From positions 1 to 64,000 of the IMG/VR virus record IMGVR_UViG_3300032268_000887: a stretch of 64,000 nucleotides of DNA. The stretch is one strand, 5' to 3'. The notes beneath the pieces were generated by a model. That model was not told where the DNA came from, made no database searches, and saw nothing but the letters and a program-made list of their open reading frames with translations. The translations under genes were made by a program, and so were the position numbers. Of the stretch, positions 4,508 to 42,831 are shown piece after piece (position 1 is the first letter of the stretch; every line of letters begins with the position of its first letter). The stretch comes from a virus.

Positions 4508-4510
4508 TGC

Positions 4511-4524
4511 GGATAGGGTACAAT
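4511..4524 (+). promoter_or_regulatory. GGG-type -10 promoter, leaderless, for 4531-5199
   Basis: GGATAGGGTACAAT, with TACAAT (4519-4524) ending six bases before the ATG at 4531. Nearly the same TAGGGTATAAT string precedes the dioxygenase genes at 40530 and 42831. Confidence 0.6.
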
Positions 4525-4530
4525 AGATCT

Positions 4531-5199: not shown

Positions 5200-5203
5200 T
5201 AAT

Positions 5204-7880: not shown

Positions 7881-7909
7881 AGTATAGTCCGAAACTAATG
7901 ATTTGTCAA
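7881..7909 (-). promoter_or_regulatory. Strong leaderless promoter for the protease gene
   Basis: Leftward TTGACA (7904-7909), 17-base spacer, TATACT (7881-7886), then six bases to the ATG at 7874. Both hexamers are near perfect and there is no Shine-Dalgarno. Confidence 0.8.
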
Positions 7910-14731: not shown

Positions 14732-14910
14732 TTTCGATTATCTGTTCTATAAAACCCATTTCCATTAAACGTTACCCCGATATTAGAATATACCCGTACC
14801 AGTGAACCATTGCACTTGTCACAGTTATATCCAGGATCTACTTCAGACATTGTTCTAATTTTTGTATATCTTAACGCACAAGGCATGCAGTCATATTCGT
14901 AGGCAGGCAT
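14728..14910 (-). CDS. FmdB-family zinc-ribbon protein
   Basis: 60 residues from the ATG at 14910, in a TAATG overlap with the upstream dioxygenase gene. It starts MPAYEYDCMPC, the hallmark of the FmdB/CxxC_CXXC_SSSS family, with a second pair YNCDKCNG, then FNGNGFYRTD, the usual family end. Cellular members are putative regulators of unknown mechanism; phages often carry them. Confidence 0.8.
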   Translation of the reverse strand: MPAYEYDCMPCALRYTKIRTMSEVDPGYNCDKCNGSLVRVYSNIGVTFNGNGFYRTDNRK

Positions 14911-15551
14911 TAGACTTCTCCAGTAGACATTCTTGGTTCTTTTAAACTGTGGTACCACTGCGGTACTGCATATCTAAAACCTTTTTCAATAGGTTTTACC
15001 GTATGAGTAAAAACAAAATTTGATGGAAAAAATATAACACTTCCAGCCTCTGGTTTAATTTGAATATCTACCTGTGGAAAATATATTTCCCCGCCAACAT
15101 AATCATCATTTAAGTAAGCAACTGTAGATAAAACTCTACTGCTAACCCCCTGATCTTGATGCTCTGGCAAGTATCCCGTAGTTCCATATTTTAAAATACT
15201 TAACAATCCCTCTGTTGATTTAATATTTTGAGATGCATGTGGGTATAGTTCTTTTGAGTAATGATTGTATGCTCTTTCAATACCACCAAAAATTTTATCA
15301 TAGACAAAAGATATATGAGAATAAAGTGGGTCTAACTTAAATACATTTTTAGGTTCAGTTATAAAATGCCTTATACAAAATTTTTCTATTTCTGGGTTAG
15401 CCCCATTCCATTCATGCCACGGTAACGCAGCGCTCTTGACACCTCTTGCAAGTTGATCTTGCATATATTCAATAGAGCCAATTGTTTCTTTAGTATTTTC
15501 AATAGCATCTTTATAATAAACCATTCCGGCAGCCAAAATTTCATGTTGCAT
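14910..15551 (-). CDS. P4H-type Fe(II)/2OG dioxygenase
   Basis: 213 residues from the ATG at 15551 (MQHEILAAGM), chosen because GAAGAG lies just upstream and the overlap with the previous gene is small; an ATG 21 bases earlier is possible. EHQDQG has the HxD ligands, then TVAYLNDDYVGGEIYFP, the EAGSVIFFPS turn, FTHTV (distal His) and FRYAVPQW (Arg). It sits immediately after an HWR-type dioxygenase gene, so the two families are paired in one operon. Confidence 0.8.
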   Translation of the reverse strand: MQHEILAAGMVYYKDAIENTKETIGSIEYMQDQLARGVKSAALPWHEWNGANPEIEKFCIRHFITEPKNVFKLDPLYSHISFVYDKIFGGIERAYNHYSKELYPHASQNIKSTEGLLSILKYGTTGYLPEHQDQGVSSRVLSTVAYLNDDYVGGEIYFPQVDIQIKPEAGSVIFFPSNFVFTHTVKPIEKGFRYAVPQWYHSLKEPRMSTGEV

Positions 15552-16122
15552 CGTACTCTTCTTTCCATTCATCCTTTTTCTTTGACAGTCTTTTTTTAAA
15601 ATCAGAGTAATCTGGTCTTAGTTCGTGTTTATGAGACCAGTGGCTATCTTCTCTAAATTGAAACCACATTAAATCTAAAAATTCACCATCACTAAATTCC
15701 CTTTTAGGTCGCCAGTGCAATACATTTTCTCCCTCAAATACTAATGCATCATTATTTTCTAAAACATACTCTTTTCCTTCTACATTTAAAGACCAGGAAA
15801 TGTTGCCGTCTAGTTGATAATCTAGAGTAAACTGTGAGGGAACTTCATCCATATGGGGTCCTAATTTAGGGGTGCCAAACTCTTTGCTGTATCTTCCAAA
15901 CGCAACAGCATAAATCTCTAAAGGTTTTCCATAATGTGAAATTGCTATGTCTGTTAAAGTTTTTGTTACTCCTTCTGGTAATAAGTTAAGGTTTGGCAAT
16001 GGCTTTACTTCTCTACCAGGCCACCTTTTGCTAACAGCAACATTTTCTATGTTATCTCTAATAACTTTTATTTTTGCTATTTCTTCATCAGAAAAAATAT
16101 TTTTTACTATTGACGATTCCAA
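15541..16122 (-). CDS. HWR-type putative Fe(II)/2OG dioxygenase
   Basis: 193 residues. I use TTG at 16122 (M-ESSIVKNIFS) because GGAGG sits five bases upstream; a TTG 12 bases earlier would lie before that site. It shows GPHMDEV (HxD), LDYQLDGNISW, NNDALVFEGE, LHWR and a final LMWFQFREDSHWSHK strand. Nearly the same layout as 5896-6471, including a second HWSH near the C-terminus. TGATATAAT at 16147-16155 gives a short leader. Confidence 0.7.
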   Translation of the reverse strand: MESSIVKNIFSDEEIAKIKVIRDNIENVAVSKRWPGREVKPLPNLNLLPEGVTKTLTDIAISHYGKPLEIYAVAFGRYSKEFGTPKLGPHMDEVPSQFTLDYQLDGNISWSLNVEGKEYVLENNDALVFEGENVLHWRPKREFSDGEFLDLMWFQFREDSHWSHKHELRPDYSDFKKRLSKKKDEWKEEYDAT

Positions 16123-16146
16123 GATTACCTCCAAACCTTATAATTT

Positions 16147-17022: not shown

Positions 17023-17454
17023 TTATTTTATTTTAATTGTTTTAGGCTTCTTTTCTTCTGGAACAATACGATCAATTTGTATTTTTAACATACCGTCCTT
17101 TAGATCAGCACTAGTAATTTCCATGTATTCTCCAAGCGCAAAAGATCTTGAGAATTGGCGAGTTGCAATTCCATTATGAACTACTTCTGGATATTTTTTT
17201 CTTCCATCAGTCTGATCCTTTAATTCACCCTTAATAAATAAAGTTCTATCATCTAGAGTGACCTCTATATCATCTTTAGAAAATCCAGCCACAGCAATAG
17301 AAACTAGATAAGAATCTTCATCTAGTTTGACTATGTTGTAAGGTGGATACGACTGTGAGTTTGTTCTATATGCACTGTTTAGGCGACTCAACTCTTTGTT
17401 GAAACCAATAAAAAATGGATCCTTAAAAAGATCCATAGCGAATGTACTTACCAT
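17023..17454 (-). CDS. hsp20: Small heat-shock protein (Hsp20/alpha-crystallin)
   Basis: 143 residues. The alpha-crystallin domain runs from about residue 38 to 130: YPPYNIVKLDEDSYLVSIAVAG, DIEVTLDDRTLFIKGE, RQFSRSFALGE and GMLKIQI. The C-terminal I-x-I motif (TIKIK), which docks between dimers, is present. Hsp20 holds unfolding proteins in an ATP-independent way; phages use it during virion assembly or host stress. AAGGAGG precedes the ATG, and the gene has its own promoter and a structured leader, so it is probably regulated separately. Confidence 0.9.
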   Translation of the reverse strand: MVSTFAMDLFKDPFFIGFNKELSRLNSAYRTNSQSYPPYNIVKLDEDSYLVSIAVAGFSKDDIEVTLDDRTLFIKGELKDQTDGRKKYPEVVHNGIATRQFSRSFALGEYMEITSADLKDGMLKIQIDRIVPEEKKPKTIKIK

Positions 17455-21143: not shown

Positions 21144-21815
21144 ATGAGCCTTGATATTTTAAATTTTAAACCAATAATTATAAATAATTTTTTTACAAAT
21201 TATGAAATAGATGAAATGTATTCTGTAATCAATAATAAGATTATTAAAAATATTAATAATAATTTATTTGAATATGATGGTTTTGAAATTAATCAAGGCC
21301 ATGGTTCTTTTATGTATAATCAAACAGGTAAAAATGATACTATATTTTCTAAAAATATATACACAAAAATTAAAACAGAAATAGAAAAAATTTTAAACAC
21401 AGAGTTTGAAATGCCATCATTATGTTTTCAGAGATATTCTTTAATGACTGGAAAAAATCCGAGATTGCATCCTCACACGGATCAATATAAGATTGCAGAA
21501 GGTAAACACAATAAAAATAATTCTGTTCATTCCAACATTCATTTAATTAGTCTTTCAGTACCCCTAAAAAATAATTTTAACTGGGATATATCTGTTAATC
21601 GGACAAGTTATCAATTAAATAATAATGATGCTCTTTTATTTTCTGCAACCGCAGACCTTCATTGCAGGCCTCATAGGGAATTTAAGATAGAAGAAAAACA
21701 TGATGTGTTAATAGTTAGAATTATACCAAAAAATAATCAAGTGTCTGTGAATGAGTCAAAATATGAAGATATCAAATCAGAAATAAGCAAAATGCAAAAA
21801 ATTAATCAATATTAG
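21144..21815 (+). CDS. Diverged HWR-type putative dioxygenase
   Basis: 223 residues. It starts with the family's IIINNFFTNYEI motif, has HPHTD as HxD ligands, a WDISV strand, NNDALLFSAT and then LHCRPHR in place of HWR, so the His and Arg survive while Trp is replaced. An insert of about 15 residues follows the HxD motif. It is the most distant copy in the window. Single-gene transcription unit with a leaderless start. Confidence 0.55.
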   Translation: MSLDILNFKPIIINNFFTNYEIDEMYSVINNKIIKNINNNLFEYDGFEINQGHGSFMYNQTGKNDTIFSKNIYTKIKTEIEKILNTEFEMPSLCFQRYSLMTGKNPRLHPHTDQYKIAEGKHNKNNSVHSNIHLISLSVPLKNNFNWDISVNRTSYQLNNNDALLFSATADLHCRPHREFKIEEKHDVLIVRIIPKNNQVSVNESKYEDIKSEISKMQKINQY

Positions 21816-21832
21816 AAAAAATAACTGGGGAA

Positions 21833-22381
21833 TTATAGTTTAAAATCTGGGTCTTGAAATGCTTTTTGTGAGGTGTGCATATATAAAGCGGTATATCTGT
21901 GCCCAGTTTTTACTTCTGTGATTCCATGTATATACTCTGTGCCAGCACTTGGAAAAAATACGGCAGAAAATTTTTTAGGTTTATATGAAAATCCTTGATT
22001 TGGAAAATAAATCTCTCCGCCTTCATACTCTAAGGGATCATTAAGATACATTATAGTGCTCCACTCAATAAATGGCTCTGGTCCCTGGGCATCAATATGT
22101 AGGTCCCCTTTTGTTCCAGCAGTCCAATGGGAACCAAATGCTTTAAATACATAAATATCTTTTAAATATCCATTTAGCCCTTTATGCATTTCATTGCTTT
22201 TGTGGCCATATTTAGTTAACAAATTTATTACTTTTTGATTATAAGGAAACGCCGTTCCCCCATATCTTTTTTTATAATAATCTGGGTATGGATTTGTTTG
22301 AGATGGATTGTTCATTTCACCAATTAAAAGGTTGGCGTCTTCTTCAGAAATAAAATTATTGACTACGGTAATTCTGTGCAC
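21833..22381 (-). CDS. P4H-type Fe(II)/2OG dioxygenase
   Basis: 182 residues, GTG start directly after the stop of 22382-23308. DLHIDAQG (HxD), TIMYLNDPLEYEGGEIYFP, a KPKKFSAVFFPS turn, EYIHG (distal His) and GHRYTALYMH (Arg) are all present. It is the last gene of the long operon starting at 28918. The N-terminus (RITVVNNFISEEDANLLI) is the usual P4H helical entry. Confidence 0.8.
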   Translation of the reverse strand: MHRITVVNNFISEEDANLLIGEMNNPSQTNPYPDYYKKRYGGTAFPYNQKVINLLTKYGHKSNEMHKGLNGYLKDIYVFKAFGSHWTAGTKGDLHIDAQGPEPFIEWSTIMYLNDPLEYEGGEIYFPNQGFSYKPKKFSAVFFPSAGTEYIHGITEVKTGHRYTALYMHTSQKAFQDPDFKL

Positions 22382-23308
22382 TTAGTCCACCTTTTTTATG
22401 TCTTTAATAAATCTGTTTCCATCTATTTTATCATACTTTGAATCTGTAATTCTATAACTAACATCGTTTGTAGCAAATGGTAGATATTCCAAAGACTTAA
22501 AATTAAAATTATGGTACTGACTAAACTTATCAATAATATCTAAATTTATTTGTCCCACTACACTGTTATGGCCATGTTTAAAAAGATTAATGAGTTCGTT
22601 ATAATTGTGGTATTTAGAAAATGGAACATAATAGTTAAAATCTTCCAATGTGGTATATCCATCTATGTTTACAACATTTTCTGGGGCTGCGTATATTTCT
22701 ATGCCATCTTTAAAGTATTGCAAAGAAAGCGCTTCTTCTTCTCCATAATATTTTAACCATCCTGGTAAATTATAGGGCCCCATAAAACTATTTTTCATCA
22801 TAACAACATTTCCAAATATAAAATTTCTATCTATAAAATTTGTTAATGTGAAATCTTGAATGTTGGAAAATTCTTTTTTAACAAAGAATAAGTCTTTATT
22901 TGTTATTGATACTTTTTTGTTTCCAGAAACTATAACATTTTTATCTTTTACAAAATTAATTAAGTTTAAATCCCAATCCTGATCTACCATTGTTCCAGGA
23001 GTGATAGTTAGGTGATACCTGCCCCCTAACGTAACCTTTAATCTTAAATTTTTATATAATGCAGCACCATCTATGTCATCCCAAGCAACTGGAACATAAG
23101 TTCCATTGCAATTATCATAACTATTTACTAAATCTATTAATAGTTTTGATCTATCTACCCCATTTTGATCATGCCAATGAATAAATAAAAATATTTTTCC
23201 AGACCATTTTTGCATTAAATTTTCTAAAGTCTTAATTGCCTCTTTGCTTTTATAAGAATACATTACAACATTAATGCTATCTATTGTTGTATTTTGTTTT
23301 TCTGCCAT
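22382..23308 (-). CDS. GlcNAc-type glycosyltransferase (GT-A)
   Basis: 308 residues. SINVVMYSYKSKEAI starts a GT-A Rossmann half, FIHWHDQNG resembles the sugar-nucleotide segment of Skp1-type GlcNAc transferases (PF11397-like), MVDQDWD supplies the acidic metal motif, and PGWLKYYGEEEALSLQYFKDG matches the W..YGEE..L acceptor-side motif of that family. Family resemblance is by eye. It starts in a TAATG overlap with the DUF6065-like gene. Confidence 0.55.
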   Translation of the reverse strand: MAEKQNTTIDSINVVMYSYKSKEAIKTLENLMQKWSGKIFLFIHWHDQNGVDRSKLLIDLVNSYDNCNGTYVPVAWDDIDGAALYKNLRLKVTLGGRYHLTITPGTMVDQDWDLNLINFVKDKNVIVSGNKKVSITNKDLFFVKKEFSNIQDFTLTNFIDRNFIFGNVVMMKNSFMGPYNLPGWLKYYGEEEALSLQYFKDGIEIYAAPENVVNIDGYTTLEDFNYYVPFSKYHNYNELINLFKHGHNSVVGQINLDIIDKFSQYHNFNFKSLEYLPFATNDVSYRITDSKYDKIDGNRFIKDIKKVD

Positions 23309-24036
23309 TATGAAAACCTCTTTTTTTGCCAGACTTCTTCTTTGTAATATCCTGTGACCATAGTTCTTCTTTGCTCAGCCTTAAATTCTTCTTCTTCTAT
23401 AGACTCTTTATCATTTTTAACTTCAATTTCCCATTCATCTCTTTTAAAAGGAATAAATTGCATAATTGGTGTTCCTTTAGGAATTGTGCCAATAAAGTCT
23501 CGTTTTAGAAAAAAGGAAAAAAATACTGGCAATCCCCAGATATCTGAGTCTACCATTCCCGAAAGAGTATAAAATGGCAAATCATACCTATTCATCGGAT
23601 GAGTAACCAAAACAGAGTGTCCTGGTGGGGTACGATAAAACCAATTCATTCTAAATCCAAAATGTAATTGGTGGCAATCGCTTGGAATAGGAACCTGCAA
23701 GGTTGGTCTTTTATCAATTAACATGACTTCGCCTTTCCATGTTAACGTTGGAAAGCCTTCTTTATTTAAACTAACATGTAGATCATCTTCTAGTAAATAA
23801 TAATATCCTGAAGTAATCGCATCAAAAAATGGCATACATTTTTTTGTGTCTACCAAAGTGCCATCAGTTCCTATATGATTTACTGGTTGTAAATTTTTTA
23901 TATCATTTGAGTCTCCATATAGGGCAAGACTTTTATACCATTCTGGAACCATAGTTATTGCTGGAACTGGTGGGATATACATATCTTTAAAATTTTCCAA
24001 TGAAGGAATAAAAGTTATTTTATTTGTTTCACTCAT
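23308..24036 (-). CDS. Conserved phage protein, DUF6065-like family (copy 2 of 3)
   Basis: 242 residues. It carries the family marks of 1929-2624: VPEWYKSLALYGD, TKKCMPFFDAI, RTPPGHSVLVTHPMN, SGMVDSD and KGTPIMQFIPFKRDEWE. The middle is diverged. Overlapping starts and stops link it to copy 3 upstream and the glycosyltransferase downstream, so it is part of the glycan operon. Function unknown. Confidence 0.6.
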   Translation of the reverse strand: MSETNKITFIPSLENFKDMYIPPVPAITMVPEWYKSLALYGDSNDIKNLQPVNHIGTDGTLVDTKKCMPFFDAITSGYYYLLEDDLHVSLNKEGFPTLTWKGEVMLIDKRPTLQVPIPSDCHQLHFGFRMNWFYRTPPGHSVLVTHPMNRYDLPFYTLSGMVDSDIWGLPVFFSFFLKRDFIGTIPKGTPIMQFIPFKRDEWEIEVKNDKESIEEEEFKAEQRRTMVTGYYKEEVWQKKRFS

Positions 24037-24758
24037 CTATATTCCTTTTTTTGTCTAAGGCTATCTCTATAAAAATTTTTAAATCTACTTCTAACTGATA
24101 TTCTTTGTTTTCCTATAACTTTTGCTGATGTTTCAGGATCTACCTTCTCCATTTCATATTTTTCTCTTTTAAATGGAATAACTTGAACTAATGGAGTTCC
24201 TCTTTCAATTACTCCTTTAAAATCTTTTTCAATATACATTGATAAATGGCCATCGCTTATAAATTGATCAGTATCAATAATTGCTGAAAATGCTTGGAAA
24301 GGCAATCCATCTCTATGAATAGGATGTGTAAACAAGCAACTATATCCGCTTTCTGTTCCTACCGACCAAAATGGGAGTATTCTAAAAACTTCTTTGTGAT
24401 ATTTTTTTTCATCTCTTGGATAATGTGAAACTTGTTCTGGACTATGAGATGATACAAGATCTCTTTTAATCATTTTCATTTTTTCTGGAATAGACCAAGT
24501 TATTTTTTCTGGATCAGTAGCATCTATGTAGACATCGCATGGAAAATATATTAAATACCCACAATTTAATGCGTCAAATACTGGCATGCATCTTTTAACA
24601 GTAGAAGAAGATGCTCCTTTTTTAAGAAATTGTTCTTCATCTCCACCATAGGCTGGCTGTTTTTTATACCACTGTGGTATGTTTTTTGATGCTGGAGTTG
24701 GTTCTGGAGACATATCTATTGTCTCCTGATTAAATGGATAAAACTTAACTTTGGCCAT
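24033..24758 (-). CDS. Conserved phage protein, DUF6065-like family (copy 3 of 3)
   Basis: 241 residues with the same marks: IPQWYKKQPAYGG, TVKRCMPVFDAL, SGYSCLFTHPIHRDGLPF, AIIDTD and RGTPLVQVIPFKREKYE. A good Shine-Dalgarno (AAAGGAG) precedes ATG inside the end of the gene upstream. It is adjacent to copy 2, an evident tandem duplication. Confidence 0.6.
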   Translation of the reverse strand: MAKVKFYPFNQETIDMSPEPTPASKNIPQWYKKQPAYGGDEEQFLKKGASSSTVKRCMPVFDALNCGYLIYFPCDVYIDATDPEKITWSIPEKMKMIKRDLVSSHSPEQVSHYPRDEKKYHKEVFRILPFWSVGTESGYSCLFTHPIHRDGLPFQAFSAIIDTDQFISDGHLSMYIEKDFKGVIERGTPLVQVIPFKREKYEMEKVDPETSAKVIGKQRISVRSRFKNFYRDSLRQKKEYR

Positions 24759-25389
24759 AAAACTCCTTTATTCTCTTTACCATTATATCACTACCTGCAA
24801 ATTTTATCAAATATGCCGACTGATTCCTTTTTATTCTACCACATTCCTCGTCTATCATGTGACTTCCTTTATTTTTAAATTTAAAAAATAACATTATTGG
24901 ATCAACTTTATTTTTATTATTTATTTTGCTTTTATATGAAAAATTATAAAAATAGAATGGAGATTGATCAACATTTAAAATCTCAACTTCAATATTATCC
25001 TCATCAATAAACCATGGCATTGCCCACCGAAATACTGGATCAAAATAATCGGGATCTGATGCTTTTATAATTTTAGACAAATAAAATTGTCTCATATGAA
25101 TTTTTTCTATTGCTCTTAAATTTTTTGAATTTCTTATTTTTAATAAAAATATTTCAGCAAAATTTTCTTGACATAGAGTTACAATATTATTATCAATAGA
25201 TATTAATTTTGGTGGTGGGCACAATTTATACATGTATTTGTTTATTGGTTTAATTATTGAATCTTTATGCTCAGTCTTTAATACTTCATCATAATTTAAC
25301 CACTCTGGTTTAATGTTTGATCTTTCATTAATAAATAAAAATGATTCATCAAAAGATTTATACCAAATATTAAAATCAGGACTGTTCAT
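24745..25389 (-). CDS. Hypothetical protein in glycan operon, 214 aa
   Basis: I use the ATG at 25389 (MNSPDFNIWYKSF) instead of one at 25452, which would sit 77 bases inside the carbamoyltransferase gene; the shorter form overlaps it by 14 bases. The protein has a beta-rich middle (LISIDNNIVTL) and a C-terminal DPVFRWAMPWFIDEDN segment. The rhythm of its second half recalls the DUF6065-like neighbours but the conserved blocks are missing. Unknown function. Confidence 0.5.
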   Translation of the reverse strand: MNSPDFNIWYKSFDESFLFINERSNIKPEWLNYDEVLKTEHKDSIIKPINKYMYKLCPPPKLISIDNNIVTLCQENFAEIFLLKIRNSKNLRAIEKIHMRQFYLSKIIKASDPDYFDPVFRWAMPWFIDEDNIEVEILNVDQSPFYFYNFSYKSKINNKNKVDPIMLFFKFKNKGSHMIDEECGRIKRNQSAYLIKFAGSDIMVKRIKEFYGQS

Positions 25390-26827
25390 TTTTGCCACGT
25401 ATAACTTTGGCGTTATATGTTTTTTCCCATGCCAAAATATCCTCTTCGTCATTTAATAGTGGCTGCCCTTTAATATTTAAACTGGTATTTAATAATACTG
25501 GGACACCAGTAAGTGCATACCAACTAGATAAAACTTCATGTAGTCCAGGATGCTGATCTTTGTTTACTGTTTGTACTCTTGACGTTCCATCTTTATGAAC
25601 TACTGCTGGAATTTTATCTGGCTGCAAACATTTAACTGCATACTGCATATATGGAGATGTAAAGTTCATATCAAACCATTTATCAGCATATTCTTCCAAA
25701 ACTACTGGAGCAAATGGTCTAAAAAGTTCTCTTTTTTTAATTTTATTTACTTCATCTTTTATATTTGCATCTCTTGGATCTGCTAGGATGCTTCTATTTC
25801 CTAATGCTCTTGGTCCATATTCTGCTCTACCGACAGCAACTGCTGCCACTTTATTTCTAATTAACTCTGTAATTATTTCTGATACTGGATAAGTACCGCC
25901 CAAATCATAGCCTAGATAAGGATTTTGCCATTTAATATGCTTTCCATGTGATGCAACTGCTGCTCCTAGTGAACTGCCAGAATCTCCAGGATTTGGCATA
26001 ATCCAGACATCATCAAATATATCCCATAATTTTGTATTAGCAGAACAGTTTAATGCACAGCCACCCATGAATACTAACTCAGTTTTTCCTGTGATAGTTC
26101 TTGCCATTTTCATAAATTCAATAAGTCTAAGTTCATAAACTTTTTGAACTGATGCTGCAATATCAAACTTATCTTGTTCTGTTACCCATCCCCAATCGGT
26201 AATACCTTTATGAAAATTATATTTTTGTTTATTGTGCTCTGGAAAATAATCTTTTACTTTATTATAATATTTATTTGCATCCCCGTAGGCTGCCATACCC
26301 ATAAAAATATATTCTTCTTCATTTGGCTTTAGGCCAACTAATTGTGTAAATGCTGAATAGAATAACCCAAAACTAAATGGATAATTTTTTTTGTAAACTT
26401 GTTTAATGCTTGAGCCATCTCCTACCCATATGGTAGAGGTGTTGTACTCGCCAATAGCATCTAAAACAACAATAACAGCATCACGAAATGGGCTTGTGTA
26501 GTAGCCTGCTGCTGCGTGTGAATAGTGATGGCTAAATGATTCTCTTGGCACCCACCTTAAATCTTTTCTGTCTAAGTAGTGTGGCTTATCTCCACCAAAA
26601 CCACCCTTTAATAATATTCTAGATTTTTTTAACCAACGATTTTCATAATAGGCTATGCGATCTGGCTTTCCATATTGAAGTGCACAATCAATTAATTTAT
26701 CATTAGTAAACCAGTCATTTTTTTGTTTACTGAAGCGTTCTGCGTGTGCAGCAAAAACCAACTCTCCATGTTTTAATAAAGATACTGATGCATCATGAGT
26801 TGTTTCATTAATGCCTAAGATTATCAT
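25376..26827 (-). CDS. Carbamoyltransferase (NodU/CmcH family)
   Basis: 483 residues. The N-terminal ASKHA-fold domain starts GINETTHDASVSLL with the family HDAS motif, then HHYSHAAAGYY and VVVLDAIGEYNTS. The C-terminal domain has GPRALGNRSILADPRD, the diagnostic family signature, and FRPFAPVV. Members transfer a carbamoyl group to sugar hydroxyls, as in Nod factors and tobramycin; cyanophages also carry them. Length is somewhat short of cellular enzymes (about 550) but both domains look complete. It should decorate a glycan made by the neighbouring transferases. Confidence 0.9.
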   Translation of the reverse strand: MIILGINETTHDASVSLLKHGELVFAAHAERFSKQKNDWFTNDKLIDCALQYGKPDRIAYYENRWLKKSRILLKGGFGGDKPHYLDRKDLRWVPRESFSHHYSHAAAGYYTSPFRDAVIVVLDAIGEYNTSTIWVGDGSSIKQVYKKNYPFSFGLFYSAFTQLVGLKPNEEEYIFMGMAAYGDANKYYNKVKDYFPEHNKQKYNFHKGITDWGWVTEQDKFDIAASVQKVYELRLIEFMKMARTITGKTELVFMGGCALNCSANTKLWDIFDDVWIMPNPGDSGSSLGAAVASHGKHIKWQNPYLGYDLGGTYPVSEIITELIRNKVAAVAVGRAEYGPRALGNRSILADPRDANIKDEVNKIKKRELFRPFAPVVLEEYADKWFDMNFTSPYMQYAVKCLQPDKIPAVVHKDGTSRVQTVNKDQHPGLHEVLSSWYALTGVPVLLNTSLNIKGQPLLNDEEDILAWEKTYNAKVIRGKNEQS

Positions 26828-27033
26828 TAACTAATAACTTTCAGTACAACTTGACAAGGATCTCCACCATCTTCCCATTCTTGTTCTTCTTCTTGAGTCA
26901 TATATGGGTCTCCATCGTGTGTGTTGCAAAATGGAGGAGTTATCCATTTTCTATTAATTCCATTTTCTAGCCAAATTTCAAATTCTTGAATATTTGCTAA
27001 CTCTTCTTTTTCTTCTTTAAAGATATCACTCAT
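26827..27033 (-). CDS. Small acidic protein, 68 aa
   Basis: 68 residues, very acidic (KEEKEELANIQEFE; QEEEQEWEDGGD), with single-base/ATGA-type overlaps to the peptidase upstream and the carbamoyltransferase downstream. The short W..PPFCN segment could be a structural core. Unknown; it might be a partner or inhibitor of the peptidase. Confidence 0.45.
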   Translation of the reverse strand: MSDIFKEEKEELANIQEFEIWLENGINRKWITPPFCNTHDGDPYMTQEEEQEWEDGGDPCQVVLKVIS

Positions 27034-27554
27034 TATGCACTCACCGTATCTATTGGCCCTTTACATGAAGGGGAGTATTCTATTGCTGATGCAACTGCTT
27101 GTCTTACTCTATTTCTAGGATTTTTTTGTTTTTGTGTTGAATATAAAGATCCATATGCATACCCTGATCCAGATCCCATACACAAGAATGGCTGTTGATA
27201 TTCTGTTAAAGACATGTCTATTGCGTTATGCTCAAAGATTCTTCCACGAACACAAATGATCATTCCAAAATCAGCATCTTTAGTCGTATCTACCCACCAC
27301 TCTTCATAAAATTTACGTAATGATTTGATAAATTTTGTATACATAAACTTATCTAAATTTCCTTCTGGTAGTGGCGGTTTAAAGTTATGTCTAATTCTTT
27401 CACCATCCATTGTTCCAGCATATCCAAAAAGATATGGTCCAGTTTTCCAAACTTTGGGAGCGACAATAGACATTATATTATCATCATCAGAGGCACCACG
27501 ATCTCCTGCCATATAGACCTTACCATCTTGTTTAACGACAGCAATGATTGTCAT
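27033..27554 (-). CDS. Proteasome-beta/HslV-like Ntn hydrolase
   Basis: 173 residues from the ATG at 27554, chosen because AGGGGAG lies six bases before it; a longer frame to 27608 lacks such a site and would bury the active Thr. After removal of Met the protein begins T-I-I-A, so Thr1 becomes the N-terminal nucleophile. Asp17 (AGDR) and Lys33 (APKV) fall at exactly the numbers of the archaeal beta subunit, and GSGSGYAYG gives Ser129 with the conserved Gly pair. The C-terminal GPID block also fits proteasome, HslV or Anbu subunits, but the Asp166/Ser169 partners are replaced (Ser160/Cys163 by my alignment). No ATPase partner gene is in the window. It probably assembles into a ring and may process virion or host proteins. 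Confidence 0.8.
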   Translation of the reverse strand: MTIIAVVKQDGKVYMAGDRGASDDDNIMSIVAPKVWKTGPYLFGYAGTMDGERIRHNFKPPLPEGNLDKFMYTKFIKSLRKFYEEWWVDTTKDADFGMIICVRGRIFEHNAIDMSLTEYQQPFLCMGSGSGYAYGSLYSTQKQKNPRNRVRQAVASAIEYSPSCKGPIDTVSA

Positions 27555-27614
27555 AGGCTCCCCTTCACTTTTTCTATTTAAGTATACCAAAAAATTTTGG
27601 CTAGTCAAGCACTA

Positions 27615-28190
27615 TTATTTTATAGTTTGTCCACATGCTGAGCATGTTTTAATTTTGTTTGAGGGTTTTTTTGCTGTAGTTGGAGCAGCCCCACCAAATT
27701 TAGGTCTACCAAAGCCTACAATAGACACTAAAATGTTTTTCTTATTTTTCTTATAAGCACGAAGTTTTTTGCAAACCTCTCCACCATTACGCTGGCTACC
27801 CTTTGGATCTCCGGAAGTGTTACCTTCAACACACCAGACTGTTCCGTCTCCATTGTCTGCTACTACTATTGCTACGTGGCTAATTCTATCTACCCCGTCA
27901 GATGGAAAATCAAAATATGCAATGTCTCCTGGCTCTGGATCTGCTAAGTCTCCGTCAATCCAACTACCTGCTTTTTTAAATGCTGCTGCTCCACCAGGCG
28001 TGTAAACAGTGTTAGGAATTTTTACTCCTGCTTCATTCCCGCACCAGTTTACAAAAGATCCGCACCATGGTTGAAAGTCTGCCTTAGTAAATTTACCATA
28101 CTTAGTTTCATTATCTTTAGGACCTTCAACAGTTCCTACTTCTGAAGTAGCAACTTCAATAAGACGGGCTGCTGTACCTTGCTCCGCCAT
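27615..28190 (-). CDS. CHAP-domain endolysin
   Basis: 191 residues. CHAP cysteine in QPWCGSFVNWC (about residue 43), a PGDIAYFDFPS strand, catalytic His in RISHVAIVV, and CVEGNTSGD for the third position. Cleaves peptidoglycan cross-links or stem peptides for lysis. The end carries KPSNKIKTCSACGQTIK, a small C-x2-C motif that may bind zinc or the wall. No signal peptide, so it needs a holin; the membrane protein at 28336 is the likely one. Confidence 0.85.
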   Translation of the reverse strand: MAEQGTAARLIEVATSEVGTVEGPKDNETKYGKFTKADFQPWCGSFVNWCGNEAGVKIPNTVYTPGGAAAFKKAGSWIDGDLADPEPGDIAYFDFPSDGVDRISHVAIVVADNGDGTVWCVEGNTSGDPKGSQRNGGEVCKKLRAYKKNKKNILVSIVGFGRPKFGGAAPTTAKKPSNKIKTCSACGQTIK

Positions 28191-28740: not shown

Positions 28741-28918
28741 TGTCAGTTTCCTTTACTAAATCTTTTGTACATGTACCGCTTGCCTCACACTCTGGCGGAA
28801 TGCACTTTGTTTCTTTCCAGTTTGCTGGGTCTTGACAGGCATACCTGTAGCGACTTGAACAAGCAGAAAGGCTCATTACAAGTATACCGCAAAGTAGGGC
28901 TGAGGTCAACTTTTTCAT
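28733..28918 (-). CDS. Small lipoprotein, 61 aa
   Basis: 61 residues. Signal peptide with a lipobox: LTSALLCGILVMSLSAC, cleavage before Cys20. The mature part has further cysteines (ACQDPANW, KCIPPEC, TCTKD), likely disulfides. It heads the long operon 28918-21833, with a leaderless start. In a host without an outer membrane it is not a spanin; an exclusion lipoprotein or a lysis accessory is likelier. Confidence 0.7.
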   Translation of the reverse strand: MKKLTSALLCGILVMSLSACSSRYRYACQDPANWKETKCIPPECEASGTCTKDLVKETDNG

Positions 28919-28978: not shown

Positions 28979-29158
28979 TTACTCTTCCCCTTTTTCACGA
29001 ATGCCCATAGTTAAAAACCATAGGGCTACTGAGGCTATAGTTACATATCCTACTACTGTTTTTGCGCTGCCCTCAAGTACTACCCAGGCTACGAAAAACC
29101 CTAGAAATGTAAAGTTTTCATTTAGGGCTGCCATGCCCCATTTTTTTAACCATTTCAT
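28979..29158 (-). CDS. Small two-helix membrane protein, 59 aa
   Basis: 59 residues from the ATG at 29158 (MKWLKKWGMA), where GGAGG lies five to ten bases upstream; an earlier ATG has none. Two hydrophobic segments (TFLGFFVAWVVLEG and VVGYVTIASVALWFLTMGI) around a short polar turn, then a charged end REKGEE. A second holin-like candidate beside the lysis genes, or an antiholin. Confidence 0.6.
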   Translation of the reverse strand: MKWLKKWGMAALNENFTFLGFFVAWVVLEGSAKTVVGYVTIASVALWFLTMGIREKGEE

Positions 29159-29159
29159 T

Positions 29160-31763
29160 TTATTTCCTCCTTCTTGATGCAGTTCCAACTATCACTTGGC
29201 CAGCAATGATTGTTACAACTACAATATCTTCCGCTTTTTCACGTTCTGGAATAGACATATCAGCACCGATGTTAAGCAAGGCTTTTCCTAACTCACACTT
29301 TTGCTCTTCTGTCAAACCTTCTATTGCTTGTTCTGGATTAAAACACCCAGCAATCGCTTCTGCTAATGCTGCTGGGTTTTCTAACACAAGTAATGCAGAT
29401 GCTACCTCTGCTTGAATTACTACGGGGTTTCCATTAATGTCTTCTCTTACTTCTACTGGAATTGTAGGAGGAAGATCACGATATTCAAGTCCCGCCGATT
29501 CTATGTTTGCAGCAGTTACTGGTGCTCCTTCTGCTGAGGTTACCAATACATCTGCAACTAGATCCTTTTCTGCTAAAGTAAATTTACCGTCTTCAGATAA
29601 GACTTCAGATAAATTAGCAACTTCTTCAATTGTTATTTCTCCATCTGCAGATAACATTTCTGTAATAAAATCTGCTTCTGATTCTGTTAATCCACCCTCT
29701 GATAATGTTGATGAAACTTCTGCAGCAATTTCTTCAGATACTTCTCCACCATTAGCAATCGCCTCTAAAACTTCGGTAACTTCAGAAGCATCCAAACCAC
29801 TATCTGAAACCAAATCACTAACTATATCTTGCACTTCTTCTACAGATAAGGTATCATTATCTTGTGCAATTTCTTCAAAAGAATCCTGACTTTCTTCAAG
29901 AATATTTTCTAGTTCATCGTTGGATGAAGATTCATCAGATTCAGGTGTATCCGTTTCAGGAGATTCAATTTCTTCGGAAGGCACTTCTTCAGCAGGGATC
30001 TCTTCCACAGGAGTTTCCTCTACAGGAATCTCTTCTGTTTCTGTACTCTCCTCTTCAGTTGGAATGGTCTCGTCTGGTAAGGTTTGTTCAGGCGCATAAA
30101 TAAAAACTGGCTCTGGGGCTGGGGCTATAATAATTTCTTCTGGTGCGGGTATAGAAATAACAACCTCTGTATATTCACTTACAGGTCCAGACCAGTTAGC
30201 AACTCTAACAGTATAAGTAGCGCCTTCTGTCAAACCACTTAATTCAATAGATGCAGGAGCACCATCTGTATTGTATGTTCCACCAGCATATGGATTTTCT
30301 GCATCAGGATCTTCAGTTACTACCTGATAAAACCAAGTGTTTCCTTCATACCCTGTTGGCATATCTACTTCAACATACATCAATGGACCAACTGCTGGGA
30401 TTGTAATAATGGGTGCTGGAGTTGGAATATTAGCACTAATTGCTGTAGTTAACTCTTGAGCATTTGTGTTTAATTGTGTTTGTAAGTTTGTCTTACTAGA
30501 TACCGCTGAGTTTACGGTATTAGTTAAAGATGTTGTATTAATAGCATTTATTGCTGATGTGTTTGTAGTATTTTGAGCAACTACTGGAGTAAGGCTTGAA
30601 TTTAGTTGTGCAATAGTTGCATTTGCTGCATCAACTGCTGCTTGAACTGTTTCTGTGTTTGGATCTACATACGGAGTAAATGCTGCACCTTGACTTATTT
30701 GTCCAGCAAAACCTGCTCCAACATTAGTATCTGTAATTGGAATAAGTGCGCCATTGGTTGTTTCTCTAACATTAAATCTTGCTTGATCTGGTATTGGCCC
30801 ATTAGCAGTTACACTTGCCATCCAAGCACCATCATTTGGATTTACATCAGCATTAAATCTTATTTGAACCATTTGTGTAGAAGCGTCTTGTTGTGGGTAT
30901 GGACGTAGGTCCCAAGCAATATCTAAACTTGTACCAGTTGTTGCATAAGTAATACCTGTTCCTGTGCTCCAGGTTGTCCAGTCCCATCCCGCTATAGATA
31001 CCGATGGGGCACTTGGAGTTGTATGGTATATGGCACCCTCATTTACACCAAATGTTATAGTTGCATTAGACCCAACATAAACGTTGTTATAAACAGTTCC
31101 ACCCATTTGCATTCCAAACGGAAGATTCATTTGAATACCAGCATCATCTACACCAGCAAGGACATTTGTACTTGTTCCAATAGTAGCCTGCAAATTATTT
31201 ACTGCTGTTTGTGCATTATCAATTGCAATGTTGGCTTGAGTTAGTTCGGTTTGTGCGGTGGCTTGTGCTGTTGTTGCTGTTGTTTTTGCTGCAACGGCTT
31301 CAGATATTTGTACCTGTGCAGTAGATGTGTCAATATTATTTATGGAGGTTTGGCCTGTTGTAATTGTATTTTTTGCATCTATAACTATTTGAGAACTTTG
31401 ATCTATTGGAGTAACGGTTAAGTTTATGTTATTAATTGTTGCAGTGGCTGTGTCTACTAAGGCTATATTTGATTGTGCTATTACTACTGTGGCTGTTACT
31501 GTGTCTACCGCTGCCTGAGCCTCTACCCTTTCAGCAACTGCTACTGCTATGGTGGCGGTGGCGCTATCAGTGGCTGTAATAGCCTGCTGAACCTCTGTAA
31601 TAGCCGTTTCAAGGGCTGTATTAACTGCCTGTTGGGCAGGACTTATAACGACTTGCTCTTGATTATCTGTAGCATAAGCCTCATTGGGCGCCATAAAAGC
31701 AAAAACGGTTATGCACAAGGCAGAACCGAATATAATAAAAAATTTACGTTTTATACTATTCAA
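29160..31763 (-). CDS. Large secreted surface protein with helical repeats
   Basis: 867 residues from a TTG start (31763); GGAG lies 11 bases upstream and no ATG fits. Residues 1-32 are a signal peptide (basic start, IIFGSALCITVFAFM, AYA). Then comes a Thr/Ala/Val-rich helical region to about 190 and a beta domain with an FGVNEGAIYH...GWDWTTWS segment (about 195-340), resembling a lectin or nidogen-like module. A second helical stretch, an Ig-like part and a very acidic Glu/Ser/Pro section (about 560-640) follow. The C-terminus has a hydrophobic VVVTIIAGQVIVGTA and RRRK end, as in wall or membrane anchors. Probably a host-surface-anchored adhesin or barrier protein made during infection. Confidence 0.6.
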   Translation of the reverse strand: MNSIKRKFFIIFGSALCITVFAFMAPNEAYATDNQEQVVISPAQQAVNTALETAITEVQQAITATDSATATIAVAVAERVEAQAAVDTVTATVVIAQSNIALVDTATATINNINLTVTPIDQSSQIVIDAKNTITTGQTSINNIDTSTAQVQISEAVAAKTTATTAQATAQTELTQANIAIDNAQTAVNNLQATIGTSTNVLAGVDDAGIQMNLPFGMQMGGTVYNNVYVGSNATITFGVNEGAIYHTTPSAPSVSIAGWDWTTWSTGTGITYATTGTSLDIAWDLRPYPQQDASTQMVQIRFNADVNPNDGAWMASVTANGPIPDQARFNVRETTNGALIPITDTNVGAGFAGQISQGAAFTPYVDPNTETVQAAVDAANATIAQLNSSLTPVVAQNTTNTSAINAINTTSLTNTVNSAVSSKTNLQTQLNTNAQELTTAISANIPTPAPIITIPAVGPLMYVEVDMPTGYEGNTWFYQVVTEDPDAENPYAGGTYNTDGAPASIELSGLTEGATYTVRVANWSGPVSEYTEVVISIPAPEEIIIAPAPEPVFIYAPEQTLPDETIPTEEESTETEEIPVEETPVEEIPAEEVPSEEIESPETDTPESDESSSNDELENILEESQDSFEEIAQDNDTLSVEEVQDIVSDLVSDSGLDASEVTEVLEAIANGGEVSEEIAAEVSSTLSEGGLTESEADFITEMLSADGEITIEEVANLSEVLSEDGKFTLAEKDLVADVLVTSAEGAPVTAANIESAGLEYRDLPPTIPVEVREDINGNPVVIQAEVASALLVLENPAALAEAIAGCFNPEQAIEGLTEEQKCELGKALLNIGADMSIPEREKAEDIVVVTIIAGQVIVGTASRRRK

Positions 31764-39569: not shown

Positions 39570-39875
39570 TCAACGTGCTATGTATTTAAGAGCAGACACT
39601 AAATTGTTTACTGACTCTGCTGCAGTGTAGTATATGTTTTTCTTTGCCCTGTTATTTTTATCTACATTAGCCATCCAAGTTGCTTTTAAAGATAGTTTTG
39701 CTGCGATGGCTTGTAATCTAACTATTTCTACAGTTGCCACTGCAATTGGAATGTCTGGCCTAATAATTAATTTAGCAATCATTTCCAATGAAGTTGTAAG
39801 TTCTTCGTCGTCCATATATTCTGCAATTTCTGCTAAACCATTAATGCTTTCAAGCGTTGTTTTTACTGGCTCCAT
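39570..39875 (-). CDS. Hypothetical helical protein, 101 aa
   Basis: 101 residues, all helix (LAEIAEYMDDEELTTSLEM; VNNLVSALKYIAR). Preceded by AGAGGAAAAG. Layout resembles small phage proteins encoded beside exonucleases, role unknown. Confidence 0.5.
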   Translation of the reverse strand: MEPVKTTLESINGLAEIAEYMDDEELTTSLEMIAKLIIRPDIPIAVATVEIVRLQAIAAKLSLKATWMANVDKNNRAKKNIYYTAAESVNNLVSALKYIAR

Positions 39876-40530
39876 CTTTTCCTCTTTTCAGTTTGTCTAG
39901 TTGTTCAAAAAATTGTTTTCTATACTCAATCATTCTTGGCATATTATTATGTTTTGCCACAATAAATTCTCTTTCTATTGGAGACATTTGTTTTTCTGCA
40001 TAAGGCTTATGGTCATGTTTATTAGAAAAATGAAACACAATTACTTCACATCTATCGTTTTCTTTTAATGTAACGGGTGCTCTCCAGTGTATTCTTTCTG
40101 CTGCCTCAAAAACTAAAACCTCATTGTTTTTTAAAAAGAACTCTTGTCCTTCTACAACTACAGCCCAATCTATGTTACTTGACATTTGATAGTCAATGCT
40201 TACTTTTGTATAATAATTCTCTGTATCTAAATGTGGCGGAAGCATAGGGGAGTTTCCATTTCCATATTTTCCATAGTAGTCTAAATATTGATAATGAGTT
40301 AATTCCAGATCTGGGTCATTAACATATTCTAAAGCAAGATTTTTTAATTTTTCTACAATATTGCCTGGAGCATCGAACTCAATCTGTACCCTTGACATGC
40401 TCTCAATTGTCATAGGGGAGTATCTGCTTACTCCAGGAGTTAGCATTCTATTTGTTTCAACTAGTAGTCTAAGTTCTTCTTCTTCTTCTCTTGTAAAAAA
40501 ATTTTTTACAATTCCGCAATTAGTATTCAT
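39850..40530 (-). CDS. HWR-type putative Fe(II)/2OG dioxygenase
   Basis: 226 residues: GIVKNFFTREEEEELR start, PPHLDTE as HxD, IDYQMSSNIDWAVVVEG, NNEVLVFEAAERIHWR with the HWR motif, then a long charged C-terminal helix. It is the copy placed in the recombination/replication module. Leaderless: TATAAT six bases before the ATG, preceded by TAGGG. Confidence 0.7.
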   Translation of the reverse strand: MNTNCGIVKNFFTREEEEELRLLVETNRMLTPGVSRYSPMTIESMSRVQIEFDAPGNIVEKLKNLALEYVNDPDLELTHYQYLDYYGKYGNGNSPMLPPHLDTENYYTKVSIDYQMSSNIDWAVVVEGQEFFLKNNEVLVFEAAERIHWRAPVTLKENDRCEVIVFHFSNKHDHKPYAEKQMSPIEREFIVAKHNNMPRMIEYRKQFFEQLDKLKRGKDGASKNNA

Positions 40531-40536
40531 ATTAAA

Positions 40537-40542
40537 ATTATA
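40537..40542 (-). promoter_or_regulatory. GGG-type -10, leaderless, for 39850-40530
   Basis: Leftward TAGGGTATAAT, hexamer ending six bases before the ATG; same string as at 42838 and, with one change, at 4511. Confidence 0.6.
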
Positions 40543-40828
40543 CCCTATCTACCAAATCTTCAATAACCGATAGTTCGGCAACTAGCAATCGTGTTTTTTT
40601 AGGCCCATTGCCTAACACTATTATTAGTGCTGGAGATTTATTAATTCCAGATTTAATGGCATCTGTTGTTATTTTTGCCCAAACATTTTCATTTAACGTA
40701 AAAGATTTTTTTGCTTCCTTTATATCAACCACAAAAGATTTCCAGGTAGCATCTCCTTTTTTATTTCCTCTTCCAGAATTTTTATGAGGAATAGCATTCA
40801 TTCTTTTTATTTCATTTTTTTCACTCAT
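40538..40828 (-). CDS. Small PD-(D/E)XK/Holliday-resolvase-like nuclease
   Basis: 96 residues. SGRGNKKGDATWKSFVVDIKEAKKSF has the GD...(D/E)-x-K spacing, with GD, then DIKEAKKS, as in Hjc-type resolvases and small endonucleases. A C-terminal strand (PALIIVLGNG) completes the fold. Overlaps the dioxygenase gene upstream by eight bases. Medium certainty because it is short. Confidence 0.55.
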   Translation of the reverse strand: MSEKNEIKRMNAIPHKNSGRGNKKGDATWKSFVVDIKEAKKSFTLNENVWAKITTDAIKSGINKSPALIIVLGNGPKKTRLLVAELSVIEDLVDRV

Positions 40829-42155
40829 TGCTATACCTTTTTATGGCTTCCTTTAAATCTAAGTTTTCTTTCATTAGATCGACAGAAAATTTATTTGAAA
40901 ATCTCATCATGTTTGACTCTATTTTTTGCTTTTCATCTAAAGTTATTGGCAGACTATCCTCTAAAGAAAAATGACAAAACAGCATTTCTACAAAATCTCC
41001 ATCTTTAAATTCTATTGGTTTTCTCCAATGAACTTGATGTGTTCCAGAAAAAGCAGCAGCCATGTTATTTCCAAGTTTAATTTCGTAATCTTCTACTACA
41101 ATTGCCCACTCAACGTTAGCCCTTAGTTGTACATCTAATGTAACCCTGGGATGCGTAAATGTATTGTCATAGTGTGGAGTTAATACTGGAATGTCTGAGT
41201 ATTCTTTAGAGTATCTTGCAAAAGAGATTTCTTCTAGTTTTACATTTTGCATATGAATAGTTTTCATTTGCATTGCAACTTTATCTTTTATTGTTTGAGG
41301 AAGATCTATAAACCAAACTTTTTGTCCATAAATTTTAACCTTTGTCGTGCCCTCACTAGAGTTTAAATCTATTGTTTTGTAAATTAGGTCAATCTCATCT
41401 TGTGTAAAAATATTGCCGTATCTTCCTTTATGGGTTAGTGGTGATCTTTTTTCAACGCCAGATTCTTTATAGCCTTCTATTTTTATTGGAATATCGCTTA
41501 TTTGTGTTTCTTCTTTTAGCAACTTTTTGCGTTTTTCCATAATTGTATAACTATCGTTGCTAAACTCTCTTTGTTTTTTATGGGTTAAAAAAACAAACAT
41601 TAAAACTGTTTCTTGTCCTGGTTTTATTTTTTTATTTTCTCGCCAATGCATCTGGTTAGTCCCGCCAAATAAAATTGCTTGCCCATCTTTTAGATCATAA
41701 TCTTTTCCTTCTACAACAAGATTCCATTTATGATTAGATAATATTTGAAGATCAAAGATAAGTGTTTCTAATGCCCTTGAATCGTAATGCGGAAATAGTT
41801 TTACTTCCCAGCCAAAGTCAGCAGTATATTTTGTTAAAGAAAGGTTTGCAATTTCTAACTCTTCTCCATAGGCTTCGCTACAGAATTGTTGAATTCTTTT
41901 ATGAATTGATTTAAATGTTGGATCTTCCATTGAAATATTTAAGTTTGCTTGGCCATCCCAATTTTTAAGAACAATTTTATCTTCTGGAATATTTTTAACT
42001 AAATTTTGAATATATAATAATTCATCTGAAGATAAAAAATTGTCAAAAATAAAAGGTGGCAAATCTTCATCATTTACAATTTCATTTTTTTCTTTTTGTT
42101 CTTCTCTTAACTTTTTATATTCTGGCAATTTAGAGTAGTCTGGAAAATTATTCAT
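40821..42155 (-). CDS. Tandem two-domain HWR-type putative dioxygenase
   Basis: 444 residues from ATG 42155 (MNNFPDYSKL), chosen because TATAAT ends six bases upstream. Domain 1 (about 30-215) has FPHYDSRA (HxD), FDLQILSNHKWNLVVEG, DGQAILFGGT and MHWR. Domain 2 (about 225-410) repeats it: TPHYDNTFTHP, LDVQLRANVEWAIVVED, NNMAAAFSGT and VHWRKP. Both domains keep HxD and HWR, so both may be active. The separate gene at 42163 is closest to domain 1 (both have PEYKKLR and FPHYD), so this looks like duplication followed by fusion. Confidence 0.75.
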   Translation of the reverse strand: MNNFPDYSKLPEYKKLREEQKEKNEIVNDEDLPPFIFDNFLSSDELLYIQNLVKNIPEDKIVLKNWDGQANLNISMEDPTFKSIHKRIQQFCSEAYGEELEIANLSLTKYTADFGWEVKLFPHYDSRALETLIFDLQILSNHKWNLVVEGKDYDLKDGQAILFGGTNQMHWRENKKIKPGQETVLMFVFLTHKKQREFSNDSYTIMEKRKKLLKEETQISDIPIKIEGYKESGVEKRSPLTHKGRYGNIFTQDEIDLIYKTIDLNSSEGTTKVKIYGQKVWFIDLPQTIKDKVAMQMKTIHMQNVKLEEISFARYSKEYSDIPVLTPHYDNTFTHPRVTLDVQLRANVEWAIVVEDYEIKLGNNMAAAFSGTHQVHWRKPIEFKDGDFVEMLFCHFSLEDSLPITLDEKQKIESNMMRFSNKFSVDLMKENLDLKEAIKRYSNE

Positions 42156-42161
42156 GTTAAT

Positions 42162-42167
42162 ATTATA
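42162..42167 (-). promoter_or_regulatory. -10 box, leaderless, for 40821-42155
   Basis: Leftward TATAAT preceded by GTG, ending six bases before the ATG at 42155; it coincides with the stop codon of the gene upstream. Confidence 0.55.
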
Positions 42168-42831
42168 CACTTTCCCTTAAGGTTTCGTCACTTAAAATAT
42201 TGGTCTCTCTTTGAAGAACTTTTTGTCTTTCAAGCATATTAACTGATTGAGTTTCAGATATAGGTTTTGAAATTTTATGCTTAAGCCAGCAGAACATCAT
42301 TAGAATTTCTGAGTTATCTTGCAATTTTTTATTTTCTCTCCAGTGCATCTGTTGAGTACCAGAAAATAATAGGGCCTGATTGTCTAAAAGATTAAATTGT
42401 TTGCCTTCAACAATTATTCCCCAATCCTCATTTGTTTGCAATTGAATATCAAAAACAAACATCTCATACGGCCTTGTGTCATAATGTGGAAATAGTTTAA
42501 CTTCATATCCGTATTCAGGAGAATACCTGACAATAGAATATTCTGCAACAATCAAGTCTTTATTGCATGCTTCTGATGCTAAGTTTTGTATTTTTGCAAT
42601 TACGCTATTTGAAATTTTTATATGATCTAAAACTCCTTGCCCACCCCATTTTTGAATTCTAATTTTTTCTAAAGGAAATTCTTTGGCTGTTTGCAATATA
42701 TCTTTTAGTTCTTTATCAGTAAAAATATTATCTACTAATATTGGAATAAAATCTTGATCAGACACATAGTCTTGAGATGTGCGTAATTTTTTATACTCAG
42801 GAAATTCATCTAGGTTAGGGAAAATACTCAT
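42163..42831 (-). CDS. HWR-type putative Fe(II)/2OG dioxygenase
   Basis: 222 residues. It starts IFPNLDEFPEYKKLR, as in the fusion next door. FPHYDTRPYEM (HxD), FDIQLQTNEDWGIIVEG, DNQALLFSGT and MHWR are present. Leaderless with TAGGG-TATAAT. Closest relative of domain 1 of 40821-42155. Confidence 0.7.
   Translation of the reverse strand: MSIFPNLDEFPEYKKLRTSQDYVSDQDFIPILVDNIFTDKELKDILQTAKEFPLEKIRIQKWGGQGVLDHIKISNSVIAKIQNLASEACNKDLIVAEYSIVRYSPEYGYEVKLFPHYDTRPYEMFVFDIQLQTNEDWGIIVEGKQFNLLDNQALLFSGTQQMHWRENKKLQDNSEILMMFCWLKHKISKPISETQSVNMLERQKVLQRETNILSDETLRESV

Follow-up and report, generated by a model that had tools for sequence, protein, structure and literature searches.

A putative proteasome-like threonine hydrolase of a freshwater phage, predicted to belong to a separate clade of the group I type

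The DNA analyzed here (the window) consists of positions 1 to 64,000 of an IMG/VR virus record (102,686 bp) derived from a freshwater phage. An open reading frame of 173 codons plus a stop lies on the minus strand at 27554-27033, and its 173-residue product begins with MTIIAVVKQDGKVYMAGDRGASDD. A PHROG match, alignments, and a fold model mark this product, hereafter the peptidase, as a putative proteasome-like threonine Ntn-hydrolase of the group I type. The stop codon of the gene overlaps by one base (TAATG, 27035-27031) the start codon of a gene for a 68-residue acidic protein (26827-27033, minus strand) that carries the motif EF.IWL.NGI.RGW..PFCNTHDGD.YM..EE..EW..GGDPC, and the stop codon of the latter likewise overlaps by one base the start codon of a carbamoyltransferase gene (25376-26827, minus strand; Pfam PF16861/PF02543), the next gene but one. 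Upstream lies a gene for a CHAP-domain endolysin (27615-28190, minus strand; Pfam CHAP, E = 1.7e-10), and, farther upstream, one for a small hydrophobic protein that probably spans the membrane with two helices (28979-29188, minus strand). This small membrane protein is holin-like by size only, and family searches with it gave no match above the cut-off.

Relatives of the peptidase gene were gathered from IMG/VR (78 loci), and start codons were compared across 116 loci. The sequence-only reading, made before any database search, had placed the gene between those of the endolysin and the carbamoyltransferase. This is true of the window locus, but as a conserved context the arrangement did not hold: the endolysin gene was directly upstream in 19 of 80 loci and the carbamoyltransferase gene was adjacent in 19 of 105, both being confined to the window and its close kin. 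A conserved endolysin-peptidase-carbamoyltransferase module is thereby refuted. In 99 of the 102 loci with enough sequence, the gene for the 68-residue protein followed the peptidase gene within 1.5 kb and on the same strand, and in 77 of 78 relatives the gene for the small membrane protein preceded the peptidase gene by no more than 1.8 kb; from these counts, the stable unit consists of the membrane protein, the peptidase, and the 68-residue protein. The window also encodes an Hsp20 small heat-shock protein (17023-17454, minus strand; phrog_432, E = 2e-39), which was considered as a constant partner and dismissed as not general, since it lies at most 3.2 kb downstream of the peptidase gene in only 16 of 93 loci.

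As a functional partner or substrate adaptor of the peptidase, the 68-residue protein is the foremost candidate. A relative of it, 39% identical, adjoins the terminase genes of Mycobacterium phage Aminay, which is absent among the peptidase matches listed, so that the 68-residue protein may be just an actinophage gene. This relative in a Mycobacterium phage, together with a terminase that is 53-54% identical to those of Streptomyces phages, makes an actinobacterial host likely on sequence grounds.

Translation of the peptidase was proposed to begin at the ATG at 27554, and the comparison of relatives supports this start. An in-frame stop codon precedes the Met-Thr start at all 116 loci, and at 71 of them no alternative start codon is present between that stop and the Met-Thr start. 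The start position itself is occupied by ATG, TTG, or GTG among the relatives, and the codon that follows encodes Thr throughout the aligned set. The AGGGGAG sequence upstream of the ATG is separated from it by 3 bases, not by six as had been described. We also considered initiation at the TTG at 27608, which would yield a product with an 18-residue propeptide. The reading frame does stay open as far as 27608 in the window; however, the upstream stretch shows no conservation as protein, the frame is closed by stops in the relatives as noted above, and 20S beta and HslV alone have propeptides (Fuchs, Alva and Lupas 2021, PMC8665760). Furthermore, the TTG belongs to the −35 hexamer, TTGACT (27603-27608, minus strand; found in relatives), of a putative sigma-70-like promoter whose −10 hexamer, TATACT (27581-27586, minus strand), is preceded by TG and separated from the −35 hexamer by a 16-base spacer. 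The stops in relatives and the identity of the TTG as part of the −35 box rule out the upstream start, to which we assign a practically negligible probability.

Of 72 distinct upstream sequences, 64 have the putative promoter and 70 have TATACT, with few exceptions between positions −31 and −38 relative to the start codon. The sequence-only reading took the gene to be expressed late from its position beside the endolysin and carbamoyltransferase genes; this deduction fails, because those neighbors are local and the peptidase gene has its own conserved sigma-70-like promoter. Exact matches to TTGAC-N15-18-TATACT occur five times in the window (3384-3412, plus strand; 7881-7909, 27581-27608, 28881-28909, and 50780-50808, minus strand) against 0.17 expected, and the element therefore looks like a promoter class of the phage. 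The site at 28881 falls within a coding sequence, and that at 7881 is separated by 6 bases from the ATG of a gene for a second protease of this phage, a trypsin-like protein that apparently has a signal peptide (6876-7874, minus strand; Pfam Trypsin, E = 6e-19); given the 6-base gap, the message for this secreted protein may be leaderless.

Once Met is removed, Thr1, Asp17, and Lys33 (codons 27549-27551, 27501-27503, and 27453-27455, minus strand) fall at the numbers claimed for them from the 20S beta subunit. All three are invariant in an alignment of 21 close relatives, in 10 distant phage and bacterial relatives (from Vibrio, Ochrobactrum, Moorella, T5-like, and Microbacterium phages and from Rhizobium and Mesorhizobium plasmids), and in 54 aligned sequences with identity down to 22%. 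Thr1, the predicted nucleophile, is encoded by ACA, ACC, ACG, and ACT among the relatives, all four codons being in use, and the dN/dS values of the gene (0.03-0.23) denote strong purifying selection. The window family also has an invariant Gly46 (27414-27416, minus strand), aligned with the oxyanion-hole Gly47 of 20S beta (Gly50 of Td-BPH); its assignment to the oxyanion hole is tentative because the AAH-type relatives have Ser or Thr there.

The GSGS motif was said to place Ser129 correctly, and here the numbering has to be amended. In the BPH/HslV alignment of the GSG sequence, the equivalent of the proteasome Ser129 (Ser139 of Td-BPH) is mature Ser127 (27171-27173, minus strand), the first Ser of GSGS. 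Ser127 does not vary within the window family, whereas the residue numbered 129 is the second Ser and is replaced by Ala or Thr in some relatives. Since the matching loop in Cupriavidus BPH reads GSGR, the first Ser must be the helper residue. At this position the AAH-type phage proteins have Cys, in contrast to the Ser of the window family. The Asp166 and Ser169 partners are, as had been noted, not conserved: an ungapped alignment with BPH puts Ser in place of Asp166 and Cys163 (27063-27065, minus strand; invariant in the window family) in place of Ser169.

The peptidase scored 15.6 bits against Pfam PF00227 (Proteasome), below the gathering score of 22.4, which makes it a remote homolog whose membership is decided by fold evidence. 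A full-length profile match was obtained with PHROG 1040, annotated as 'peptidase HslV family' (E = 5.8e-18). With a profile of the window family, BPH was the top match in the PDB (E = 2e-5, full length) and HslV the next, and with a wider profile both were matched at about 3e-8. The NCBIfam HslV equivalog gave 19.2 of the 157.75 bits needed, far under its cut-off, and the 20S proteasome beta equivalog gave 23.7 of 191.9 bits; the propeptide of 20S beta is also missing, as the start at 27554 leaves none. A search of the 102,686-bp record with the peptidase as query found no second homolog.

AlphaFold2 gave a pLDDT of 72 with the 21 close sequences; with 54 diverse sequences, to which AAH-type and T5-like proteins had been added, the pLDDT was 93.7 and the pTM 0.89, and all five models exceeded 91. 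In the model of the mature protein (172 residues), the chain stops with the strand that follows the last helix, and helices 51-57 and 67-85 are both present. Foldseek ranked BPH first (E = 1.4e-13, TM 0.80) and HslV second (E = 2e-12, TM 0.73), with 20S beta after HslV, and among predicted viral structures the best matches, at TM values reaching 0.90, were to phage proteins, one of them from a Gordonia phage (TM 0.81). A predicted structure lacking the Ntn fold had been named as evidence against the proposed proteasome-beta-like fold; the model is a confident Ntn sandwich, and together with the Foldseek ranking it allows the proteasome/Ntn fold to be confidently predicted for the peptidase. 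The family similarity to 20S beta and the likely actinobacterial host would favor another function, in which the protein joins the assembly of the host 20S proteasome or blocks it, as a decoy or inhibitor. We consider this very improbable, given that the peptidase is closer to BPH and HslV than to 20S beta, and that it has kept the full catalytic triad with synonymous turnover, which a mere decoy would not need.

Proteasome homologs in phages, PPH and AAH, were assigned to group I by Fuchs, Alva and Lupas (2021, PMC8665760), a group that consists of BPH, AAH, PPH, CPH, and HslV and is characterized by compact proteins without insertions or the C-terminal S12/H5. The compact 172-residue model and the top matches to BPH and HslV agree with this description. 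The peptidase resembles PPH and AAH in being a small, compact, propeptide-free protein with Thr1, Asp17, and Lys33, encoded by Caudoviricetes without an AAA+ partner. PPH is about 140 residues long and lacks helix H2 (PMC8665760); the window protein, in contrast, has 172 residues and both helices of the first pair. AAH clusters with alphaproteobacterial and actinobacterial homologs (PMC8665760). The profile of the close family matched an AAH-type gene of Frankia at E = 9.5e-21, versus 1e-3 for the 20S beta gene of the same genome, and among 397 genomes of the Frankia phylum no other one was matched by this profile. With PHROG 1040, matches were present in 34 of 35 Frankia-family genomes, usually accompanied by a second, weaker one (20S beta in genome G001). 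In a phylogenetic tree, the window family formed a separate clade (support 97/99) on a long branch (2.0). Its sister group consisted of the AAH-type, T5-like, and rhizobial proteins that had been sampled, with support of 80/78 for the union; the deeper branching order is unsure because the outgroup branches are long. The homology to AAH-type proteins is distant yet clear, and the window clade lies outside the AAH-type clade as sampled in this tree.

The resemblance to PHROG 1040 extends over the whole protein, and this group has members in T5-like, Aeromonas, Vibrio, Ochrobactrum, and Moorella phages; tblastn with the peptidase found matches in 146 phage records, with identities of at most about 33% among the matches listed. 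The neighbors in T5-like phages are nucleotide metabolism genes, unlike those of the window locus. A pattern built from the close alignment detected the family in at least 597 IMG/VR contigs and no relative in the bacterial genomes that were scanned with it, and a viral scan with the Vibrio phage protein gave no matches. The statement of the sequence-only reading that no described example was known has to be withdrawn in view of PPH and AAH (PMC8665760), PHROG 1040 with its T5-like phages, and a Salmonella jumbo phage reported to have HslV genes but no HslU (PMC7823757). A literature search found no reported function for any phage proteasome homolog and no experimental study of PPH or AAH. What is new, as judged from sequence comparison, is a separate and widespread clade in hundreds of uncultured phages; being separate and without the PPH features, it appears to be a new branch of an already known kind. 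Fuchs 2021 (PMC8665760) reported no actinobacterial phage with AAH; the window clade, Microbacterium phage Pumpernickel, and the Gordonia match suggest that actinophages do carry proteins of the proteasome fold.

Several other phage homologs were noted in these searches. Viral contigs of up to 481 kb (loci L133-L149) encode AAH-type homologs that share 48-53% identity with the Frankia gene, and several of these homologs end in basic Lys/Arg-rich C-terminal tails. Aeromonas phage 2L372D (L164:1501-2954) and Vibrio phage R16F (L166:1501-2489) each carry a pair of neighboring genes with HslV-family or Ntn annotations, and the products of such pairs possibly form two-subunit particles.

Among proteins of determined structure, BPH (PDB 5OVS, 5OVT, 5OVU) is the most similar, sharing the Met-Thr start and the absence of both a propeptide and an ATPase. 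It differs in being a cellular protein with only about 19-22% identity to the peptidase, a longer acidic pore loop, and residues like Asp166 and Ser169, which it keeps. BPH is a 14-mer with exposed Thr1; mass spectrometry showed that its start Met is removed and that Thr1 reacts with epoxomicin, and yet it showed no activity on casein or standard peptides (PMC5777263). Hydrolysis by the window protein therefore cannot be assumed. The inertness of BPH on general substrates suggests a narrow specificity, and connectase is a proteasome-type fold turned ligase (PMC8665760); both findings would be consistent with a specialized transpeptidase or ligase of the connectase type, or with an enzyme of high specificity that processes a single phage protein, in place of a general peptidase. 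Connectase, however, has a two-helix insertion between S3 and S4 (PMC8665760) that is missing from the compact model of the window protein, and we regard this function as quite unlikely.

HslV shares the fold and the catalytic residues, but the window protein comes from a phage without HslU. The sequence-only reading saw no ATPase partner in the window, and this can be extended to the full 102,686-bp record, in which no member of the AAA or AAA_2 families (including HslU) was detected by a search that was positive in 14 of 14 controls. A host AAA+ protein could be the partner of the peptidase, and it is conceivable, if unlikely, that a host unfoldase (Mpa/ARC-type, ClpX, or ClpC) feeds the peptidase and that the phage reprograms host proteolysis in this way. 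HslV and 20S require AAA+ partners, the phage supplies none, and actinobacterial hosts, such as the one probably used here, often have Mpa. Against this, BPH has no known partner, and no AAA+ protein was found to co-occur with the group I homologs of phages (Fuchs 2021, PMC8665760).

The best explanation overall, with a rough probability of 0.75, is that the peptidase is a group-I-type proteasome homolog, kin to BPH, HslV, AAH, and PPH, which would act as a Met-removed Thr1 enzyme without a dedicated unfoldase. The gene would be transcribed from its own sigma-70-like promoter jointly with that of the translationally coupled 68-residue protein. Host methionine aminopeptidase is expected to strip the Met, as measured for BPH, and to expose Thr1, so that no propeptide cleavage would be needed. 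The subunits would then build a closed single or double ring, in which Thr1, aided by Lys33, Asp17, and Ser127, would cleave peptides or one specific protein, again with no dedicated unfoldase. As to its role, our guess is that the peptidase might trim, without ATP and in the course of infection, proteins that are unfolded or specific to the phage; the sequence-only reading had proposed virion proteins, the host Pup-proteasome, or the modifying enzymes as targets. The loss of the Asp166 and Ser169 partners and the inertness of BPH on standard substrates speak against this explanation.

A further feature of the peptidase leader was detected in sister phages. In 42 of about 64 distinct promoters, the spacer between the −35 and −10 hexamers is complementary, over about 7-15 bases, to the Shine-Dalgarno region, and the predicted hairpin in these sister lineages covers the ribosome-binding site of the peptidase gene, with the peptidase promoter inside the 5' arm. 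Covarying hairpins are located at L055:1971-2045, L050:1354-1428, L068:708-782, L100:7938-8012, and about 38 more loci, the window not being among them. None of 5000 re-pairings of the arms equaled the cognate pairing, RNAalifold gave 9 pairs, 6 of them with compensatory changes, and double changes numbered 37 versus 18 in shuffles, these counts coming from related, not independent, sequences and so not being probabilities; sliding the partner weakened the pairing. Single sister sequences fold at z values of −3.7 to −5.5. When a fixed promoter pattern was scanned, 29 strong hairpin cases were found at the peptidase gene and 1 elsewhere, the latter (L120) being 846 bases upstream of the peptidase gene.

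Leader hairpins have been described for T4 genes e, soc, 49, and I-TevI (PMC3014915; gene e and I-TevI also in PMC2988022), and the sister phages resemble T4 in that the ribosome-binding site is paired with a 5' arm containing the promoter (PMC3014915). The sister-phage promoter is, however, sigma-70-like, whereas that of T4 is a late promoter, and the hairpin is missing from the window clade, folding having revealed none in the window (z = −0.6) or its near kin. By analogy with T4 gene e and I-TevI, the ribosome-binding site would be hidden in read-through transcripts, and a message from the peptidase promoter, which would not include the first arm, would leave it accessible. From this arrangement, the peptidase promoter seems to be the intended source of peptidase expression; early or late timing is not indicated. 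A more inclusive proposal, which we offer as speculative, is that of a widespread freshwater-phage enzyme, with hosts that are probably Actinobacteria, which performs ATP-independent proteolysis with the 68-residue protein as substrate or adaptor, and the dosage of which is adjusted in sister phages by an RNA hairpin that blocks read-through translation while the peptidase promoter provides expression.

The hairpin device in the relatives suggests that expression of the peptidase is actively controlled, and the clade offers hundreds of natural variants together with a constant neighbor gene as a possible partner. If the enzyme is active, it would represent a minimal AAA-free proteasome-type enzyme of viruses, and would help account for so many phages keeping such genes.

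The window contains additional genes of interest. Proteins that resemble 2OG-Fe(II) oxygenases are unusually many (about ten open reading frames as judged by eye, within 4507-6471, 10299-11033, 14910-16134, 21144-22381, and 39850-42831); the only one of these frames to be matched in a search was that at 21833-22381 (phrog_61, E = 1.3e-14). They are accompanied by glycosyltransferase-like proteins, suggesting heavy modification of something. Three proteins of the phrog_7084 type were also noted (23308-24758 and 1929-2624), one having a DUF6065 match and the third being recognized by eye.
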